DNA of 32,407 bases from Desulfobacterales bacterium (GTDB lineage Bacteria > Desulfobacterota > Desulfobacteria > Desulfobacterales > C00003060): assembly GCA_023129535.1 (NCBI GenBank), contig JAGMBW010000028.1, forward strand, positions 1 through 32,407, in the 5' to 3' direction. Shown in pieces: positions 4,487 to 20,747 of the stretch; position 1 is the first letter of the stretch, and each line of letters starts with the position of its first letter. The notes under the pieces were generated by a model, which was not told the DNA's origin, made no database searches, and saw only the letters and a program-made list of their open reading frames with translations. Position numbers and translations under genes: made by a program.

Positions 4487-4535
4487 AATCACTGATCACT
4501 GATCACTGACCACTGACCACTGATCACTAATCACT
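4487..4535. repeat. 7-bp tandem array, seven units of GATCACT/GACCACT
   Basis: Seven 7-bp units, the reverse complement of the array at 1557-1605. The gspD stop codon (cta at 4527-4529 on the plus strand) lies inside it, so the last residues of GspD are array-encoded. Confidence 0.95.
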
Positions 4536-6653
4536 GACTTCTCGACTTTTATACATCTTGATTACACCTTCCTCGATCCTGTCGATTTCATCCTTTTTTT
4601 CTTCAAATATTTTCTTGGCCTCTTCCGGGTTTTCGATGATGTGGGGGGTTAGAAATACGAAAAGGTTGGTCTTATTTTGTGTCTTGGAGACTGATTTAAA
4701 AAACCAACCCAAACCCGGGATATCGCCCAGGCAAGGAACCTTGTACGTTCCCATTTCACTAGTTTCGCCAATAATACCCCCGATAACCACGCTATTAGCG
4801 TCCTTCACAATAACCGTTGTTTCTGCTGATCGCTTGAGTGTAGTTGGTTTGTCTCCCTTCACCTCTCCTTTCAGTTTTATTACTTCTTGAAAGATTTTTA
4901 AGCGAACAAATCTTTCCTGATTAATCTGAGGGGTAACCTTAAGAGTGACCCCCACATCCTTATACTCATAACTGCTATAGTCTCTACCTATCTCCGTTGT
5001 TTCCGCTCTGGTAATATACGGGACATTCTCTCCAACATAAATCTCAGCATCCTCATTGTCAGTTGTCAAAATCTGCGGCGTAGAAAGGATATGCACATCG
5101 GAATCCTTCTTGTAGGCCCGTATTACAGCCCCTATGGTAGGAAACGTAAATTTGCCAATTGTAATCCCTTCACCCAGAACTCCCAACGAAAACCCCCTAG
5201 GGAAGATGGGACTTTTTGGAATGATTTGATACTCACCATATTCTGGTTTAGTTCCTCCAAGCCCACCGGAGCCTATAAAGCCTGCACTTTTTCTGCCATC
5301 ATGACTACCAATTTCTTCCATGGCACGCCACTCCACGCCAAGCGTGAAATCTTTATCCACATTCACTTCCATAATCAGCGCCTCAATATAGACCATCCTT
5401 CGCGGAATATCGAGTTTCTCAATAACATCCAGGAGGACAAGATAGTCGTCCTTATCTGCCCTAATTACCAGGGAATTGGTCGCCTTATCGGACAAGATCT
5501 GGACTTCCTTGGAAATAATGGGCGCTTTTCCCTTTGCGGGCGCTTTTGCCTGTTTGGAAGGGAGGGCCATTAGGACCTTGGCCAGATCTTCGGCATTGGC
5601 GTTCTGAAGATAATATACGTGGATGTCCCCCTCGCCTCGGGGGATTTCTTTGTCCAACAGTTTAATGAGTTGTTTGACCCTTAAAGTATCATCCTCAGTG
5701 GCCGCAATGATCAGAGAATTAGTCCTCTCGTCGGCTACAATCTTGACATCGGGACTCACAGGGACGCCTTTTCTCCGGGGCCGCGCCTTGACCTGAAAGA
5801 CAGGCAACAGCGACTTTACCAAAACCGTTGCCGTGGCATGTTCAATAGGTATCACCGATATCTCTGCACCGATACCCACGACATCAATCACCTTTACTAT
5901 ACGGAGCAGGCGTTTGATATTGGAAAGGACGTCAGTCACAATCAGGATGCCAGTAGGGGCGTATGAGATAATCACACTGCTCTTGGATATCAAGGGGGCA
6001 AAGAGTTTTTTCAGGTCATCGGGGTTGGCATAGTCTAAGGGAATCAGTTGCGTGACCACCTTGTCTTGGGGATCGATAGCCTCCTCGCGCAACCGCGTTT
6101 CAATGTTCTTGGATCGGGCCTGAACCGCCGGGATAATCTTTATCACGCTTCCCGCAGGCACGGTCGTAAAACCGTGCACCTCCAGGACCGATTCAAAAAC
6201 CTTGTACGCCTCTTTTACTGAGATCTTGGTCGGCGAGATAATCGTCACCTTTCCCCTGACTCCTTTATCAACCACGAAATTCTTGCCCGTCAGCTCGCTG
6301 ATGAACTTAATAAAAAGCGCGATATCGACGTTGTCAAAATCGATGGTCACATAACGCTCATCGGTCGCTTGTTCTGCAGGCATTTGTTGCTGACTGGGGA
6401 TCTCCTTTTTAGGAGGTGTTTTCTTTTTCGCTCGGATAAGCTTTTCAGGGGCAGGGGCTTTCCGGGGAGGCTTCACCACCGCAGGCCTCACACCTTCCTC
6501 ACCCGCAACACGGGCACCAAGGGCCACGGAATGACTGGCAAGCAGCCATAGGGCTACGCATAGAAGGGAGAGAATACATTTGAAGATGGAGTGCTGGAGT
6601 GCTGGAGTGCTGGAGTACTGGAGTGGTGGAGTACTGGAGTACCGGGTTTTCAT
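4527..6653 (-). CDS. gspD: Type II secretion secretin GspD
   Basis: The outer-membrane channel of the T2SS. The protein has 708 residues. After a signal sequence come the N0 domain (D-E-R-Y-V-T-I-D-F-D-N-V-D-I), N1 (T-Q-L-I-P-L-D-Y-A-N), N2 (I-S-V-I-P-I-E-H-A-T-A) and N3 (I-H-V-Y-Y-L-Q-N-A-N-A). The secretin barrel follows, with the gate region I-L-S-T-P-Q-I-L-T-T-D-N, V-G-E-N-V-P-Y-I and the closing L-F-V-F-L-T-P-H-I-I. The start chosen is the ATG at 6653, preceded by GGAGGG at a good distance. Between M-K-T-R and the hydrophobic core lie about 18 residues encoded by an 8-bp array (S-S-T-P-P-L-Q-Y-S-S-T-P-A-L-Q), giving an unusually long signal-peptide N-region. The stop is inside a 7-bp array. 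Function is certain; the exact N-terminus is not. Confidence 0.95.
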   Translation of the reverse strand: MKTRYSSTPPLQYSSTPALQHSIFKCILSLLCVALWLLASHSVALGARVAGEEGVRPAVVKPPRKAPAPEKLIRAKKKTPPKKEIPSQQQMPAEQATDERYVTIDFDNVDIALFIKFISELTGKNFVVDKGVRGKVTIISPTKISVKEAYKVFESVLEVHGFTTVPAGSVIKIIPAVQARSKNIETRLREEAIDPQDKVVTQLIPLDYANPDDLKKLFAPLISKSSVIISYAPTGILIVTDVLSNIKRLLRIVKVIDVVGIGAEISVIPIEHATATVLVKSLLPVFQVKARPRRKGVPVSPDVKIVADERTNSLIIAATEDDTLRVKQLIKLLDKEIPRGEGDIHVYYLQNANAEDLAKVLMALPSKQAKAPAKGKAPIISKEVQILSDKATNSLVIRADKDDYLVLLDVIEKLDIPRRMVYIEALIMEVNVDKDFTLGVEWRAMEEIGSHDGRKSAGFIGSGGLGGTKPEYGEYQIIPKSPIFPRGFSLGVLGEGITIGKFTFPTIGAVIRAYKKDSDVHILSTPQILTTDNEDAEIYVGENVPYITRAETTEIGRDYSSYEYKDVGVTLKVTPQINQERFVRLKIFQEVIKLKGEVKGDKPTTLKRSAETTVIVKDANSVVIGGIIGETSEMGTYKVPCLGDIPGLGWFFKSVSKTQNKTNLFVFLTPHIIENPEEAKKIFEEKKDEIDRIEEGVIKMYKSREVSD
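6587..6642. repeat. 8-bp tandem array inside the 5' end of gspD
   Basis: Exactly seven units of TGGAGTGC/TGGAGTAC on the plus strand. It is translated as part of the GspD N-terminus and is followed on the plus strand by the IVP remnant, the same order as at 18643-18760. Confidence 0.95.
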
Positions 6654-6657
6654 CTTT

Positions 6658-6752
6658 CTATCCCTCCATTTCTCCATATGTCGCCCATTCTTCTTTGACC
6701 ATATCATCTATCCAAATCACCCTTATTTCTTTTGTTCTCTAAAGACTTTATT
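6658..6752 (-). pseudogene. 3' remnant of an IVP/S23 four-helix-bundle gene
   Basis: These bases closely match the 3' end of the second IVP gene at 18691-18780. Read in two frames they give S-L-E-N-K-R-N-K-G-D and then D-D-M-V-K-E-E-W-A-T-Y-G-E-M-E-G-stop, against S-L-E-S-K-R-N-K-G-D and M-V-K-E-E-W-A-A-Y-G-E-M-E-G in the longer copy. One small indel separates the two parts and the rest of the gene is missing. Its last codons contain the Shine-Dalgarno used by gspD. The adjacent 8-bp array is also shared with the longer copy, so gene end and array were copied together. Confidence 0.85.
6662..6667 (-). promoter_or_regulatory. Ribosome-binding site of gspD supplied by the IVP remnant
   Basis: GGAGGG on the minus strand, eight bases before the ATG at 6653. 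It is formed by the penultimate codons and stop of the IVP remnant (ATGGAGGGATAG). Confidence 0.7.
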
Positions 6753-6824: not shown

Positions 6825-6865
6825 AAGTTCCCCCCTTTTGTAAAGGGGGGTTAGGGGGGATTTTC
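6825..6865. repeat. Left C-rich inverted repeat of the DUF559 cassette
   Basis: It contains a perfect hairpin, CCCCCCTTT-TGT-AAAGGGGGG (6830-6850), followed by TTAGGGGGGATTTT. Its reverse complement is found to the right of the DUF559 gene. It ends immediately before the stop codon of that gene. Confidence 0.9.
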
Positions 6866-7213
6866 TTACAAGCGCCCATATATCTTATGCAAAACCCCAT
6901 CGATATTCGTGAATATTTCTCTTCCTGAAAACCTTAAGACTTTAAACCCAAGCCTTCCAAGAAAATTATCTCTAATTTCATCCTTTTCTAGTCCCTGTCC
7001 ATGGTAATGTTGACCGCCATCGATTTCAATAATCAGCTTTGCGGCAGGACAATAAAAATCAACAATGTAGTTCCCGATGTTTTTCTGTCTGTAAAATTGA
7101 TAGCCATTAATCTGTTTTCTTCTGATTTTCGCCCAAAGAAACCTTTCCGAATCGGTCATATTCTTTCTAAGTTCTCTTGAACGTTGTTTGAGTTGCTTAT
7201 TGAATGGAAGCAT
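6866..7213 (-). CDS. DUF559 endonuclease-like protein (Vsr-related PD-(D/E)XK fold)
   Basis: A 115-residue protein of the DUF559 family, related in fold to very-short-patch-repair and restriction endonucleases. Residues 8-30 (R-S-R-E-L-R-K-N-M-T-D-S-E-R-F-L-W) are the usual N-terminal signature. The presumed metal-binding core is N-Y-I-V-D52-F-Y-C, then E63-I-D65-G-G-Q-H69, complete for the family. DNA cleavage has not been shown for most members. The gene sits alone between gspD and the gspB-like gene, flanked on both sides by inverted copies of the same C-rich hairpin repeat, and is visibly more A+T-rich than the gsp genes. This looks like an inserted cassette rather than a secretion gene. 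The G-rich tract of the right repeat lies just before its ATG. Confidence 0.9.
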   Translation of the reverse strand: MLPFNKQLKQRSRELRKNMTDSERFLWAKIRRKQINGYQFYRQKNIGNYIVDFYCPAAKLIIEIDGGQHYHGQGLEKDEIRDNFLGRLGFKVLRFSGREIFTNIDGVLHKIYGRL

Positions 7214-7216
7214 CTA

Positions 7217-7290
7217 TAAAATCCCCCCTGCCCCCCTTTTCTAAAGGGGGGTTAGTGGAGATTTTCTCCTTTAAGAAGGGGGGGGAACTC
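7217..7290. repeat. Right C-rich inverted repeat of the DUF559 cassette
   Basis: It starts AAAATCCCCCCTGCCCCCC, has the hairpin CCCCCCTTT-TCT-AAAGGGGGG at 7231-7251, and is followed by a partly degenerate second G-run ending near 7290. It is the inverse complement of the left repeat. A third copy lies inside the gspB-like gene. Confidence 0.9.
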
Positions 7291-7351: not shown

Positions 7352-8137
7352 TTACTCCATTCCTCTATTCCTCCCGACCATTTTTTCAAATCCTGCCACT
7401 CCGCGCAGGTTTTGCAGGTCTGAGTCCGTCCTTGCCCAGTTCTTAACCTCTGGGTCCAGCGAAACTGCTCTGTTCAAATGGTCAAGACTCTGCCTCACGT
7501 TCCCTTTAATGGCATGGAGGCACGCTAAGTTGTAATGAGAGTCCACATAATTCGGTCTGAGCTGAATCGCTTTCAAAAACAATGCACGGGCTGCTGAGTA
7601 CTTTTTGTCTTGAATATATATAACCCCTAAATTGTTTAATGCGTCTACATACTCAGGATCAAGGTCTAGGGCTTCCTCATAAAGTCTTTTAGCTTCCTGC
7701 AAGCGACCACTTTTTTGGAAATCTCTGGCCTTTTCATACAAAGAGGTAGCTGTTGAATTGAGGGTGGATTCATGATTGCTGTGCCTTGTAAAATCCCCCC
7801 CCAGCCCCCCTTTACTAAAGGGGAGAGTTTTTGAAGGCTCCCCTTTACGCCCTTCCCTATTCCCATCGCTCAAGGGAGAGGAAAGTGGGAGGCTTTCTGG
7901 CTTTGGAGTTGCCTCAAGCTCTACGGGTTCAGGAATGGGAGACCGTATCCCTCTGGAGGGTAACCACAAATAGGCCGTAAAAGCAAGCGAGATTACGAGA
8001 AAAGATGCCCACCAAAGCTTTTTGCCAGAAAAAAAAACCGGGTTGTATCGGGGTGCTGACACAATCCCACGGTATTTCTGATAACCGGCGTCTTTTTCTC
8101 TTTGGGCCTTTTTCAGGGCCTCATGGATGGAGCTCAT
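7352..8137 (-). CDS. GspB-like membrane protein with periplasmic TPR domain
   Basis: A 261-residue protein. The N-terminus M-S-S-I-H-E-A-L-K-K-A-Q-R-E-K-D resembles the cytoplasmic start of GspB/ExeB-type proteins. A transmembrane helix follows (about residues 40-58, W-W-A-S-F-L-V-I-S-L-A), then a Pro-rich linker and three TPR units (A-R-D-F-Q-K-S-G-R-L-Q-E-A-K-R, A-L-N-N-L-G-V-I-Y-I-Q-D-K-K, H-Y-N-L-A-C-L-H). It lies directly downstream of exeA, where GspB normally partners GspA in secretin assembly; that role is inferred. An upstream in-frame ATG at 8179 was rejected because the extra residues are encoded by a 7-bp array. The linker segment K-T-L-P-F-S-K-G-G-L-G-G-D-F is encoded by a C-rich repeat insertion. 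Confidence 0.8.
   Translation of the reverse strand: MSSIHEALKKAQREKDAGYQKYRGIVSAPRYNPVFFSGKKLWWASFLVISLAFTAYLWLPSRGIRSPIPEPVELEATPKPESLPLSSPLSDGNREGRKGEPSKTLPFSKGGLGGDFTRHSNHESTLNSTATSLYEKARDFQKSGRLQEAKRLYEEALDLDPEYVDALNNLGVIYIQDKKYSAARALFLKAIQLRPNYVDSHYNLACLHAIKGNVRQSLDHLNRAVSLDPEVKNWARTDSDLQNLRGVAGFEKMVGRNRGME
7790..7850. repeat. C-rich repeat copy inside the gspB-like gene
   Basis: A solo copy of the repeat that flanks the DUF559 gene (AAAATCCCCCCCCAGCCCCCC, then TTTACTAAAGGGG). It lies in the region encoding the linker between the transmembrane helix and the TPRs, without breaking the frame. Confidence 0.88.
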
Positions 8138-8141
8138 CTTG

Positions 8142-8205
8142 GATTGTCGATTGTTGATTGTCGATTGTCGATTGTCCAATAACGAATAACAAATAACAAT
8201 TAACG
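8142..8205. repeat. Two adjacent 7-bp arrays between exeA and the gspB-like gene
   Basis: Five GATTGTC-type units (8142-8176), one spacer base, then four AATAACG/AATAACA-type units (8178-8205). The first array ends four bases from the gspB-like start codon, the second four bases from the exeA stop. Confidence 0.9.
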
Positions 8206-9796: not shown

Positions 9797-9798
9797 AA

Positions 9799-9946
9799 GT
9801 CTGTTGAGTCTATTGGGTCTATGGAGTCTATTGGGTCTATGGAGTCTATTGGGTCTATGGAGTCTATTGGGTCTATTGGGTCTATTGGGTCTATGGAATC
9901 TATTGAGTCAACACAACAGACACAACAGACACAATGGACACAATGG
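9799..9946. repeat. 9-bp repeat element with inverted arms (gspC-exeA gap)
   Basis: The left arm has twelve direct 9-bp units GTCTATTGG/GTCTATGGA (9799-9906). The right arm has four ACACAACAG/ACACAATGG units (9911-9946), roughly inverse complementary to the left. It fills the gap almost completely and touches the exeA start. Confidence 0.95.
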
Positions 9947-11970: not shown

Positions 11971-12075
11971 TGGAGTACTGGAGTATTGGAGCACTGGAGT
12001 ATTGGAGTGTTGGAGTGTTGGAGTGTTGATTTTTCATTACTCCATTACTCCATGACTCCATGACTCCATGACTCC
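11971..12075. repeat. 8-bp repeat element with inverted arms (gspN-gspM gap)
   Basis: A textbook example of the family: left arm of seven TGGAGTAT/TGGAGTGT units (11971-12026), a spacer of about nine bases, and a right arm of five ATTACTCC/ATGACTCC units (12036-12075). The arms are inverse complements and could fold into a long hairpin in RNA. Confidence 0.95.
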
Positions 12076-12600: not shown

Positions 12601-13057
12601 TTTTGTGTTCGTTGTGTCTGTTGTGTTCGTTGTGTTCGTTGTGTTCGTTGTGTCTGTTGTGTTTGTTGGGTTTGCTTTGTCCGCGTGTTTTCTGATTGCG
12701 CAGGAGATAGGTAATTAGGCCGGAATCCAGTTTAGAAACTTTTTCGGCTTGCTCATAGATGCAACGGAAGATTTTCTCGGTCAGATATTCTTGATCCAAA
12801 GCCACGTAGGCTTCACTCTGGACTTCCGTCGCCGAACTCTTTGATATGAAAAGATACTGAATAAACTCCTTGTCCCATCTCCGAGAAAAGCCCTCTGCTA
12901 TGTTACTCATCGAAGATATCGCTGCACCAGTAATCTGCCCACACAATCTAAAATCCTTTTGAAAATCCTTGCTCGCTTTTATTGCCTCATAAACAAGATT
13001 CACTAATTTCCGCGCTTCCTGCCAGCAATGTAAATCCTCAAACCTCTTAATTTTCAT
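12581..13057 (-). CDS. Four-helix-bundle IVP/S23-family protein, inserted between gspL and gspM
   Basis: A 158-residue member of the four-helix-bundle family first known from proteins encoded in 23S rRNA intervening sequences. The start at M-K-I-K-R-F-E-D-L-H-C-W-Q-E-A-R was chosen because that is the conserved family beginning; an upstream ATG adds only Leu-Gly residues from a 9-bp array. The family core S-S-M-S-N-I-A-E-G-F-S-R-R lies at about 52-64, followed by the E-F-I-Q-Y-L helix and a K-S-S-A-T-E-V-Q-S-E motif. The last 30 or so residues (H-N-E-H-N-E-H-N type) are encoded by another 9-bp array. Function outside rRNA is unknown. It interrupts the otherwise conserved gspL-gspM pair and both ends are repeat arrays, so it appears to be cargo of a repeat element. 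Confidence 0.85.
   Translation of the reverse strand: MKIKRFEDLHCWQEARKLVNLVYEAIKASKDFQKDFRLCGQITGAAISSMSNIAEGFSRRWDKEFIQYLFISKSSATEVQSEAYVALDQEYLTEKIFRCIYEQAEKVSKLDSGLITYLLRNQKTRGQSKPNKHNRHNEHNEHNEHNRHNEHKNEAGKT
12604..12675. repeat. 9-bp array, left arm next to the gspM start
   Basis: Eight units of TGTGTTCGT/TGTGTCTGT. On the minus strand it encodes the His-Asn-rich tail of the IVP protein and ends three bases before the gspM ATG. Confidence 0.95.
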
Positions 13058-13062
13058 GTTCA

Positions 13063-13144
13063 ACCCACTCAAACCCAATAGACCCAATAGACCCAATAGA
13101 CTCAATAGACCCAACAGACCCAATAGACCCAACAGACCCAATAG
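13063..13144. repeat. 9-bp array, right arm between the IVP gene and gspL
   Basis: About nine units of ACCCAATAG/ACCCAACAG. In orientation it is the inverse of the 12604-12675 type, so the IVP gene lies between two opposing 9-bp arms. It ends three bases from the gspL stop. Confidence 0.95.
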
Positions 13145-13147
13145 ACG

Positions 13148-15939: not shown

Positions 15940-16710
15940 CTACCCTTGCCCCATTGGAAGCGCAACCTTTGTCAAGAATCTAAAGGGCGTATCAGGATCT
16001 GACTTATTTTCAAATTCGAGTAATATGGAAACCATTTGTGGTATCCTGTCCTTGAAAGCCTCGGTTGTAGAATCCCAGTTATCGTGCTCTTCACCCTCGG
16101 CGTCATGATAGGTGAAATTTACCGAGCGCAGTTTCTCGCAAAGGACCAATCCGCCGGTGTCTTCGCCGGAGGCTTCTATACCCCCCGGGGCGTCTTTGCG
16201 ATACAACACAAGACCCTCTTCCGCATCATTCTCAGCAGCATAATAACCTATCTCGGCTGTTCCAGAAGCTTGCTCTTGCTCGCTGAAGACAAGGTGCGCT
16301 CTGGAGATAAAGCGAAGGGAGTCGGCACTGCTGCCTTTGATCTCCATATCCTCGCCTACGAATTCAAAGACCTGACCGCTGTCCTCCTCTGATTTGGAGG
16401 ATTTCAGATTCCTTGGAATGTAAACAGACTCTAAATCTTCCTGCATTCTTTCCAGGGCAATCCGGGCCATTCTGTAAATATCAGCCTGATGTTCGGTCTC
16501 ATCCACGATGCGAAAAGTTCCGGTATAAGAGGTATAGATTGTGGAAAGAACAATGGCAAAAATGAACATGGCGATGAGGATTTCTACCAGGGTAAAACCT
16601 TTTGGGTTTGTTGGGTTTGTTGGGTTTGTTGGGTTCGTTGTGTCCATTGTGTCCGTTGTGTCCATTGTGTCCATTGTGTTCATTGAGTTTATTGACTTCA
16701 TTGTGTTCAT
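15940..16710 (-). CDS. gspJ: Type II secretion minor pseudopilin GspJ with array-encoded leader
   Basis: A minor pseudopilin of the tip complex. The processed protein begins at F-T-L-V-E-I-L-I-A-M-F after K-G, with the conserved Glu at +5, and its body (Y-R-M-A-R-I-A-L-E-R-M-Q-E-D-L-E, L-R-F-I-S-R-A-H) fits the family. Everything before K-G is encoded by a 9-bp array: T-M-D-T-T-N-P-T-N-P-T-N-P. Six in-frame ATG codons occur in this stretch and none has a Shine-Dalgarno, so the true start cannot be fixed; the longest frame is given. A start at the last ATG would leave a leader of about 17 residues. Because the unit is 9 bp, gain or loss of units keeps the frame. Confidence 0.9.
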   Translation of the reverse strand: MNTMKSINSMNTMDTMDTTDTMDTTNPTNPTNPTNPKGFTLVEILIAMFIFAIVLSTIYTSYTGTFRIVDETEHQADIYRMARIALERMQEDLESVYIPRNLKSSKSEEDSGQVFEFVGEDMEIKGSSADSLRFISRAHLVFSEQEQASGTAEIGYYAAENDAEEGLVLYRKDAPGGIEASGEDTGGLVLCEKLRSVNFTYHDAEGEEHDNWDSTTEAFKDRIPQMVSILLEFENKSDPDTPFRFLTKVALPMGQG

Positions 16711-16953
16711 TGGCTTTGTTGGGTCTATGGAGTCTATTGGGTCTATTGGGTCTATGGAGTCTATTGGGTCGATGGAGTCTGTTGAGTCTATGGAGTCTAT
16801 TGAGTTTATTGGGTCTATTGAATTTATTGAGCTTATTCAGCTTGTTCAGCTTGTTTGGGTTTTAACACAAGAGACACAATGAACACAACAAACACAACGA
16901 ACGGGAGCGTAGCGACCACACACAACAGACACAACAGACACAATAAACGCAAT
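16602..16953. repeat. Large 9-bp repeat element spanning the gspJ start and gspJ-gspI gap
   Basis: The left arm runs to about 16858 and has over 25 units drifting through TTGGGTTTG, TTGTGTCCA, GTCTATTGG and GTCTATGGA. The right arm (16865-16953) has ACACAATGA/ACACAACAG units interrupted at 16901-16917 by GGGAGCGTAGCGACC. It is the biggest array in the window. Confidence 0.93.
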
Positions 16954-18642: not shown

Positions 18643-18677
18643 ATGGAGTGCTGGAGTATTGGAGCGCTGGAGTATTG
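18643..18677. repeat. 8-bp array, left arm of the IVP cassette in the gspF-gspG gap
   Basis: Four units TGGAGTGC/TGGAGTAT. It is followed on the plus strand by the IVP 3' end, the same order as at 6587-6752. It pairs in orientation with the right arm at 19149-19183. Confidence 0.93.
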
Positions 18678-18690
18678 GCTTTTCATTACT

Positions 18691-19153
18691 CTATCCCTCC
18701 ATTTCTCCATATGCCGCCCATTCTTCTTTGACCATATGATCTATCCAATCGCCCTTATTTCTCTTGCTTTCTAAAGACCGTATCAGTCTTATAAGTTCGT
18801 TCTCGACTTTGTAACAGAAGGAATCGAGTTTCTCGAACTCTTCATCAGAGATAAGATGCCCTGCTTTGGATGCAAAAAGTCCTGATACGGTTTCACCAAG
18901 TGAAGCAAGGGCAACATAGAGGAATTTGGATATATTCACGAATAGAACGGCGGCAATAGCCCTCCGCGATGTTCCGGTGTATAGAATCCGCACCAGCCAT
19001 TTGTTGACTTGCTATCTTTTTGAATTCAAAAGGAAAACCCTTGAATTCTTCCAAAATCATAGTGTGCAACAAAATGGCATCTTGCCACACACGCAACTTT
19101 TGATAGCCACGATTCAAGTTGTATCTTGTTGTGTTCTCGAACTTGTTCTCCAT
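18691..19153 (-). pseudogene. Four-helix-bundle IVP/S23-family gene with one-base frameshift
   Basis: A second member of the IVP family. The first part begins M-E-N-K-F-E-N and contains Y-Q-K-L-R-V-W-Q-D-A, Q-M-A-G-A-D-S-I-H-R-N-I-A-E-G-Y-C-R-R. The second part, in another frame, continues F-L-Y-V-A-L-A-S-L-G-E-T and ends M-V-K-E-E-W-A-A-Y-G-E-M-E-G. Removing one base from the T-run at 18925-18927 (an A-run on the coding strand) restores Y-I-Q-F-L-Y-V-A-L-A-S, so the two parts join into one family protein of about 150 residues. The break could be a true mutation or a sequencing error. Both ends are enclosed by opposing 8-bp arms, and the right arm supplies the GGAG and ATG of this gene. Confidence 0.88.
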
Positions 19154-20549: not shown

Positions 20550-20610
20550 AAAATATCTTTTTTTAAGGTTATGCCGTGAACGTTGAACCGCTCAACCTGG
20601 GAAAGAGTTT

Positions 20611-20682
20611 GTTGTGTCTGTTGTGTCTGTTGTGTTTATTGTGTCTGTTGTGTTTATTGTGTCTGTTGTGTCTGTTGTGTTT
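20611..20682. repeat. 9-bp array, eight units of GTTGTGTCT/ATTGTGTCT
   Basis: Eight clean 9-bp units in direct repetition, the same family as 12604-12675. Confidence 0.95.
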
Positions 20683-20693
20683 ACATTGACAAT

Positions 20694-20721
20694 GATCACT
20701 GACCACTGACCACTGATCACT
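20694..20721. repeat. 7-bp array, four units of GATCACT/GACCACT
   Basis: The same unit as the arrays at 4487-4535 and, in reverse, 1557-1605. Confidence 0.93.
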
Positions 20722-20723
20722 GA

Positions 20724-20747
20724 TCAATTGTGTTTTGACACAATTGA
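20724..20747. promoter_or_regulatory. Perfect 10-bp palindrome, possible operator
   Basis: TCAATTGTGT-TTTG-ACACAATTGA: a 10-bp inverted repeat with a four-base loop. It lies about 160 bases upstream of the TPR/barrel gene and about 300 upstream of gspF. It has no T-run, so a terminator is unlikely. Its TTGTG...CACAA half sites recall Crp/Fnr-type operators, but the spacing between them is not the canonical one. Confidence 0.4.

Follow-up and report, generated by a model that had tools for sequence, protein, structure and literature searches.

Stand-alone genes of the DUF559 nuclease family are often enclosed by two inverted hairpins with an intrastrand-triplex layout, and gene and hairpins occur as one unit at unrelated genomic sites. 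The third block of each hairpin mirrors the hairpin's own arm, and gene-less motifs are dispersed in the same genome. Since the same package is found at unrelated places in many phyla, it looks like a tiny mobile element. It is highly probable that gene and hairpins form one mobile unit, by whatever means. The favoured explanation, held here with reasonable confidence, is that the nuclease acts on its own repeats to move them, as part of a minimal mobile element about 430 bp long.

The window, i.e., the whole stretch of DNA that was analysed, comprises 32,407 nucleotides and represents contig C152 of a Desulfobacterales draft genome of 2.9 Mb. In this window, the DUF559 gene (PF04480; Pfam E 1.5e-37) occupies positions 6866–7213 on the minus strand and encodes 115 aa with a predicted Vsr/homing-endonuclease-like fold. 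The original prediction that inverted repeats bound this gene was borne out, with one motif near the stop codon and the other near the start. The left (3'-side) motif (6830–6861, plus strand) has a hairpin at 6830–6850, the linker TTA at 6851–6853 and the mirror tag GGGGGGAT at 6854–6861. The right (5'-side) motif (7221–7251, minus strand) has a hairpin at 7231–7251, the linker CA, which is 2 nt compared with 3 nt in the left copy, and a mirror tag at 7221–7228. In both motifs 8/8 positions obey the G.GC, A.AT, T.AT triplet rule. The two hairpins are in inverted orientation with both tags pointing at the DUF559 gene; there are 4 bases between the left tag and the stop codon and 7 between the right tag and the start codon. 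The proposed mobile unit of triplex hairpin, DUF559 gene and triplex hairpin spans 422 bp (6830–7251, minus strand), its limits lying close to those of homology with a copy in a congener (L039). From its sequence, a degenerate further repeat half appears to lie beside the right hairpin (7252–7290, no strand assigned), outside detector scoring.

A solo copy of the repeat had also been claimed for the gspB-like gene, and it is present there, at 7793–7825 on the minus strand, inside the TPR open reading frame (7352–8179, minus strand; Pfam TPR) that is the upstream neighbour of the element. The solo motif is in frame and forms a linker peptide, which is missing from 13/13 congener TPR orthologues with a translated linker. 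The other neighbour is a gspD-like secretin gene (4527–6707, minus strand; Pfam Secretin). With up to three mismatches allowed, CCCCCCTTTNNNAAAGGGGGG is found at 6830–6850, 7231–7251 and 7805–7825, the last copy with one mismatch. Its matches in the window number five, two of them overlapping by one base, compared with 0.04 expected, and 0/100 shuffles reach five. Mirror-image third blocks occur only three times in the entire 32 kb.

The window is unusually rich in other repeats. Tandem arrays with units of 7, 8 and 9 bp, several of which are inverted pairs of one unit, lie at 1557–1604, 2262–2361, 4488–4537, 6587–6640, 9798–9943, 11971–12075, 12603–12683, 13073–13146, 16602–16902 and 20610–20726. 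The stretch upstream of gspD occurs twice, at 6611–6751 and 18644–18783, matching at 88% and 84% in its two pieces. This duplicated stretch resembles the end of a small gene, and a similar stretch lies ahead of gspD in a congener (G020).

The AlphaFold2 model of the window protein, for which the alignment drew on 45 of the loci, has a pLDDT of 90.6. In VIA-align, it matches 3HRL, the solved structure of a DUF559-type protein from N. gonorrhoeae, with Z 15.7 (rmsd 0.8, 89 aligned), the homing endonuclease I-Bth0305I with Z 10.9 (rmsd 2.8, 90 aligned), and Vsr with Z 10.0 (rmsd 2.1, 96 aligned). Judged by the modelled fold, the characterised nucleases closest to it are I-Bth0305I and Vsr. EDxHD is the name of the motif of Vsr-like homing endonucleases, and the match to I-Bth0305I gives the model a catalytic fold of this type. 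Across 45 sequences, residues R16, T20, E23, W27, Q43, D52, F53, E63, D65, G66, H69, D78 and R81 do not vary. Profile, fold and the invariant acidic and His residues (E23, D52, E63, D65, H69, D78) agree in making DUF559 a predicted PD-(D/E)XK nuclease of Vsr-like type. According to the accessible text of an earlier study, YcjD was assigned to the PD-(D/E)XK superfamily and its profile detects Vsr (PMC1189080). A similar nuclease-like domain fold is also seen in mitochondrial ribosome chains of Toxoplasma and Tetrahymena (PDB 9i05, 9g6k, 6z1p).

The repeats were originally described as hairpins with C-rich arms; the hairpins stand, but the hairpin-only description does not, each having a third, mirror-image block. 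The common layout is a hairpin, a linker (usually 3 nt: TTA, CTA, TTG, TCA or CCG) and a G-rich tag on the gene side, for example AAAGAGGGG-TTA-GGGGAGAT, GGGGAGAGGG-TTA-GGGTGAGG and AAAGGGAGG-TTG-GGAGGGAT. The linker is 3 nt long in 145/176 detected motifs. The tag mirrors the 3' arm of the hairpin, with A or T allowed opposite A. Read from sequence, such mirroring follows the base triplets of an antiparallel purine (class II) triplex, i.e., G.GC, A.AT and T.AT. For 101 repeats with A or T among the first six arm positions, the hairpins being chosen with the help of the tag, the mirror orientation scores 7.68/8 and the direct one 6.93/8; mirror is better in 50 and worse in 5, and 0/2000 arm-tag reshufflings reach the observed mean. 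In an unbiased form of the test, which takes the strongest G-arm hairpin and a fixed 3-nt linker and does not use the tag for the choice, 225 repeats have a mean of 6.06/8 compared with 4.43 (sd 0.08) for shuffled pairs; the top of 1000 shuffles is 4.74 and the direct orientation gives 3.93. The unbiased test also covered 56 loci with differing 5' and 3' arms: in 35 the tags matched their own arm more closely, 16 were tied, and in 5 the other arm gave the better match.

To our knowledge, templated mutation by slippage or strand switching produces direct or inverted repeats and never mirror repeats, and because of this we infer that the mirror rule reflects selection on a folded structure. A plain direct repeat of the arm was rejected, since the direct orientation scores worse than the mirror in both tests. 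Used in a looser scan, the direct mode still finds a motif at 98/130 loci, because many arms are G runs in which mirror and direct cannot be told apart. A G-quadruplex could form in the CCCTCTCC type, yet it does not need tags that mirror the A positions of the arm, and NMR excludes it for the TM_ECO repeat of E. coli (PMC4666352). The CCCCCCTTT-type hairpin follows the rules for a triplex fold, the in vitro triplex being that of TM_ECO oligonucleotides. An RNA family was likewise discarded, the search giving nothing beyond a chance match to U4, whose E of 0.32 does not reach the cut-off.

In species genomes, the 80 nearest DUF559 loci are spread over Desulfobacterota, Brocadiaceae, Chloroflexota, Bacteroidota, Nitrospirota, Nitrospinota, Zixibacteria, Elusimicrobiota, Omnitrophota, Patescibacteria, Pseudomonadota and further groups. 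In an initial scan, a hairpin of the window type was found near both ends of many of them, and, when flanks were read, an analogous hairpin with a different sequence turned up at many loci that lack CCCCCTTT. Analogous hairpins were also seen by eye at several plasmid-borne cyanobacterial and rhizobial genes and at neisserial DUF559 genes. Three DUF559 matches are in phages.

For counting, 137 loci were collected and three duplicates and four loci with short flanks were dropped, leaving 130 stand-alone DUF559 loci, and a motif was scored when a hairpin with a mirror tag faced the gene within 220 bp. Upstream motifs were counted at 83 of the 130 loci and downstream ones at 93; 69 loci have both and 107 have at least one. 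At 214 neighbouring control open reading frames, taken from the DUF559 loci themselves, the corresponding numbers are 6, 15, 1 and 20, the association statistics being uncorrected for shared ancestry. The original prediction was to be given up if DUF559 genes mostly lacked the repeats, and the large majority carry them. Block-shuffled flanks contain no motifs. When linkers up to 45 nt are allowed, 124/130 loci are positive, compared with 1/130 shuffled 5' flanks. Tags in the 260 flanks point toward the gene in 176 cases and away in 70. The strict detector misses 23/130 loci on both sides; being conservative, it passes over arms in which a T is close to the loop (L173) and the degenerate copies that adjoin ycjD (L164). 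Large DUF559 fusions, which are weak DUF559 matches mostly inside a large open frame, have the motif in 0/11 loci in the 2–3 kb scanned.

These counts bear on the most ordinary reading, namely that the hairpins are C-rich intrinsic terminators or chance G/C runs beside a gene. Some hairpin is indeed found in 119/226 control 5' flanks, but a gene-facing mirror tag on both sides is nearly confined to DUF559 loci, and the control open reading frames refute this reading, which is now extremely improbable.

Several loci have features of their own. In L124, L127, L129 and L136 (some Firmicutes and a Gastranaerophilales), a second small hairpin seems, by eye, to be placed in the linker between hairpin and tag. 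In L104, L105, L106 and L110 (Methylobacter and relatives) and in L114 and L120 (Nitrosomonas), the element apparently lies just ahead of an hsdS-like gene, judged from flank sequence. In a Sphingomonas plasmid (L172), DUF559 and a triplex hairpin are found between sufB and sufC.

Mobility of the unit was assessed by pairwise comparison of 155 loci. They give 41 pairs at least 78% identical across the domain, 37 of which have 350 bp comparable on both sides. Homology extends at most 150 bp on each side in 24 of these 37 pairs, is confined on one side only in 9 and continues on both sides in 4. The 24 pairs include paralogues within one genome (L248–L250), and homology often ends at the outer hairpin edge. 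For example, between the window element and L039, which are 79% identical and at different sites, homology ends 56–59 bp upstream and 32–38 bp downstream of the domain, and the outer hairpin edges (window/L039) are at 56/61 bp upstream and 39/32 bp downstream. Similarly, in the pair L040/L041 homology ends at 69 compared with a hairpin edge at 67, and at 54–56 compared with 54. Because these 24 pairs share only gene and hairpins amid differing DNA, the unit must be one that moves, and the earlier idea of a minimal mobile element with terminal inverted repeats is upheld by this together with the motif counts.

Both hairpins were identified in 85 elements, whose median length is 429 bp; the bases immediately outside them are A-rich reading outward. 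As in DNA transposons, they have terminal inverted repeats, with gene-facing tags. The target duplications that were to be looked for at the element ends did not appear in this set, duplications of 3–6 nt being no commoner than with shuffled flanks. Empty sites were found in part: the window site is empty in 15 congener loci in which the TPR-gspD pair has no DUF559 gene between its members, but divergence is too high for the ends to be placed at base level. Searches in congeners, E. coli and Acinetobacter gave no clean pre-insertion site at base resolution. In E. coli, strains without ycjD have an efflux operon in its place, so ycjD cannot be used as an empty site. One Acinetobacter locus has intact, decayed and absent versions of DUF559 among species, and the element at this locus is old. 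A query with a DUF559 island of S. meliloti was fully matched in one record only. Internal in-frame stops are present in 8/155 loci (L082, L083, L100, L102, L217, L225, L246, L247), which were left out of the protein alignments; several of these genes are still flanked by triplex hairpins and are decaying copies.

Movement could also be of the homing type, with DUF559 cutting an element-free allele or target, double-strand-break repair copying gene and hairpins, and the hairpins serving as protection or homology arms and not as substrate. The closest characterised fold, I-Bth0305I, would suit this, as would the lack of target duplications and the single free-standing gene. Homing, however, needs a conserved cognate site with homologous flanks, and flanks are unrelated beyond 150 bp on either side in 24/37 pairs; it also leaves dispersed gene-less hairpin pairs unexplained, and there is no intron or intein. 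Homing-type spread is therefore considered unlikely, and the self-moving element remains the preferred reading.

Gene-less copies are plentiful in the genome of the window. It has one stand-alone DUF559 gene, one large fusion and 83 exact copies of CCCCCTTTNNNAAAGGGGG, compared with 0 for the reversed control. Triplex motifs, 71 in total, were seen in 36 of the 37 repeat loci that were read. Many gene-less copies are inverted pairs with the tags outside and a short spacer inside, which is also the architecture of REPINs. The genome also has a MITE of about 150 bp with inverted ends AGTGC(C/T)TGAACGAAAACC and two triplex hairpins inside (L178, L183, L184, L187, L193, L194, L197, L208, L211), mostly with 4-bp target duplications (AATT, AAGT, AGTT, AACT).

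The co-occurrence of gene and repeat was examined in 297 genomes of the phylum, DUF559 being scored as present at E 1e-15 or better. At least five copies of the exact CCCCCTTT type occur in 30/66 genomes with DUF559 and in 18/231 others (odds ratio 9.9, p 2.4e-11, ancestry not fully corrected). The original prediction was also to be abandoned if the repeat proved common without DUF559, and this is partly so: the repeat is strongly enriched with the gene, but it occurs in those 18 genomes too, and no DUF559 was found in the 81%-complete genome of a congener with 118 copies. The CCCCCTTT type is absent from 28/66 DUF559 genomes, some of which have other arm types. If the comparison is limited to the 60 nearest relatives, gene and repeat are weakly linked at a threshold of at least 5 copies (p 0.09) and clearly so only from 20 copies upward (p 0.001). 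In E. coli, ycjD, a DUF559 gene, is present in 3364/5375 matched genomes, counting matches that cover 80% or more of the query. A sample of 60 rows taken across the ranking includes 37 with ycjD, which have 14–34 places matching the query, mostly its repeat (median 22), and 23 without, which have 1–20 (median 5; p 2e-9), E. coli being clonal and the rows therefore not independent. O157:H7-type strains without ycjD keep about 14 places.

The repeats in genomes without DUF559, and the MITE that carries the repeat between its own target duplications, would fit a passenger role, in which DUF559 is cargo persisting between two triplex repeats that owe their movement to another enzyme. However, the cargo is one protein family in at least 10 phyla, and the class of repeat tracks the DUF559 tree, with 38 changes over 123 tips compared with a mean of 61 and a minimum of 53 in 500 shuffles, ancestry being not fully corrected. 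Y1 (REP-type) transposases are present in 53/60 relatives regardless of the repeat, including repeat-free genomes, and 3/7 Y1-negative genomes have at least five repeats; presence of Y1 is thus non-discriminating, being found with and without the repeat, and RAYT-driven movement was rejected. A passenger role for DUF559 is quite improbable compared with a nuclease acting on its own repeats.

The right tag of the window element, GGGGGGAT, and the 7 bases to ATG (7214–7228, minus strand) are the probable Shine-Dalgarno region of the nuclease gene, supplied by the repeat. An in-frame start accompanies a 5' motif at 95 loci; in 61 of these, the start codon lies within 15 nt of the last G of the tag (median 11), and on this ground the repeat probably supplies the ribosome-binding site, which would tie gene and repeat together. 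The same position of the tag is compatible with a housekeeping nuclease whose expression the motifs merely regulate, DUF559 resolving triplex hairpins at forks or acting in Vsr-like mismatch repair. The Vsr-like fold speaks for this, as does the DUF559 protein VsrA of Caulobacter, which the accessible text of PMC12907096 ties to DNA damage. Left unexplained are the transfer of gene and hairpin between unrelated sites, the second hairpin past the stop codon and the presence of up to nine copies per genome. For example, one genome (G274) has nine DUF559 matches, and most copies read there have repeat types of their own, in which tag and arm match. A purely housekeeping function is very unlikely.

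In the favoured explanation, the element would consist of an intrastrand-triplex hairpin, the DUF559 nuclease gene and a second triplex hairpin in inverted orientation. The G-rich strand would fold when single-stranded, and DUF559 would recognise the triplex hairpin and nick one strand near the hairpin base or the linker; the DNA it acts on would most likely be single-stranded, either at a replication fork or in the course of repair. The bounded segment, either the gene-bearing unit or, in trans, a gene-less hairpin pair, would then be copied or moved without target duplication. We infer that DUF559 would thereby both cut the repeat and drive the movement. By a narrow balance of judgement, DUF559 nucleases and triplex hairpins are taken to be a new, bacteria-wide class of self-moving elements with folded three-stranded ends, of which the BoxC/TM repeats would be gene-less offspring.

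We know of no enzyme or purpose previously proposed for intrastrand triplex repeats. They are common structured bacterial repeats linked to genome instability, one type alone numbering 3,610 in 262 genomes (PMC4666352), and they gain in DUF559 a concrete partner gene with a biochemically testable prediction. Conversely, DUF559, a widespread family with a solved structure (3HRL) of unassigned function, gains a proposed role. If the nuclease does act on the repeats, this would be, to present knowledge, the first mobile element with ends recognised as a DNA triple helix, and it would give a reason for the selection that keeps triplex-forming DNA in bacteria.

Among known systems, the Vsr-like homing endonucleases such as I-Bth0305I share with the DUF559 unit the nearest characterised catalytic fold and a small mobile nuclease gene, but the unit lies outside introns and inteins, has its own terminal hairpins and occupies unrelated sites; because its flanks are unrelated, it is not strictly a homing gene. 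The E. coli Vsr mismatch endonuclease is similar in fold and small size, whereas DUF559 is flanked by repeats and multi-copy in some genomes. IS200/IS605 elements and MITEs also have hairpin ends and gene-less derivatives, but the DUF559 unit has neither a HUH transposase nor target duplications.

REP/REPIN-RAYT systems have short palindromes around one small nuclease gene and abundant gene-less inverted pairs. The DUF559 unit resembles them in both respects, and no target duplication is seen in it. It differs in having a PD-(D/E)XK nuclease in place of a HUH Y1 transposase, and a triplex-type mirror tag behind a TTA-type linker in place of a GTAG- or CGTC-tagged palindrome. DUF559 is the sole gene of the unit, and neither of the two Y1 matches of the genome is on the window contig among the matches listed. 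Having neither Y1 transposase nor REP tag, the unit is similar to REP/RAYT but distinct. The accessible text of the RepRanger paper does not contain the words endonuclease, DUF, RAYT or transposase (PMC12306157), and no paper joining DUF559 to palindromic or triplex repeats was found in the open-access literature.

The closest relatives of the repeats themselves are the TM_ECO, BoxC and PIT motifs. BoxC has a history near envM. TM_ECO, BoxC and PIT have been described as intrastrand triplex motifs, TM_ECO having the pattern CCCTCNCCC N3-6 GGGNGAGGG N3 GGGNGAGGG with TTA or CCG as the second loop and occurring in 3610 copies in 262 genomes, 23 of them in MG1655 with five inverted pairs (Holder et al., 2015, PMC4666352). 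The oligonucleotides melt at 70–82 °C and form, by NMR with 18 reported imino signals, a stable triplex and no quadruplex in vitro, and the TM_ECO triplex was undetected by in vivo footprinting in E. coli; the accessible text reports no mobility gene near the motifs, and DUF559, ycjD and endonuclease are absent from it (PMC4666352). The repeats described here share with these motifs a C-arm, loop, G-arm, 3-nt linker (TTA or CCG) and mirrored G third strand, and they are likewise dispersed and at times in inverted pairs; the CCCTCTCCC-armed type fits the published pattern and the CCCTCTCC type is the TM_ECO pattern. The DUF559 element is thus a candidate owner of a very common bacterial repeat, a link between gene and repeat for which no precedent was found in the open-access literature. 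What sets the present motif apart from TM_ECO, BoxC and PIT is that it encloses DUF559 genes, in a range of arm sequences, as a single mobile unit.
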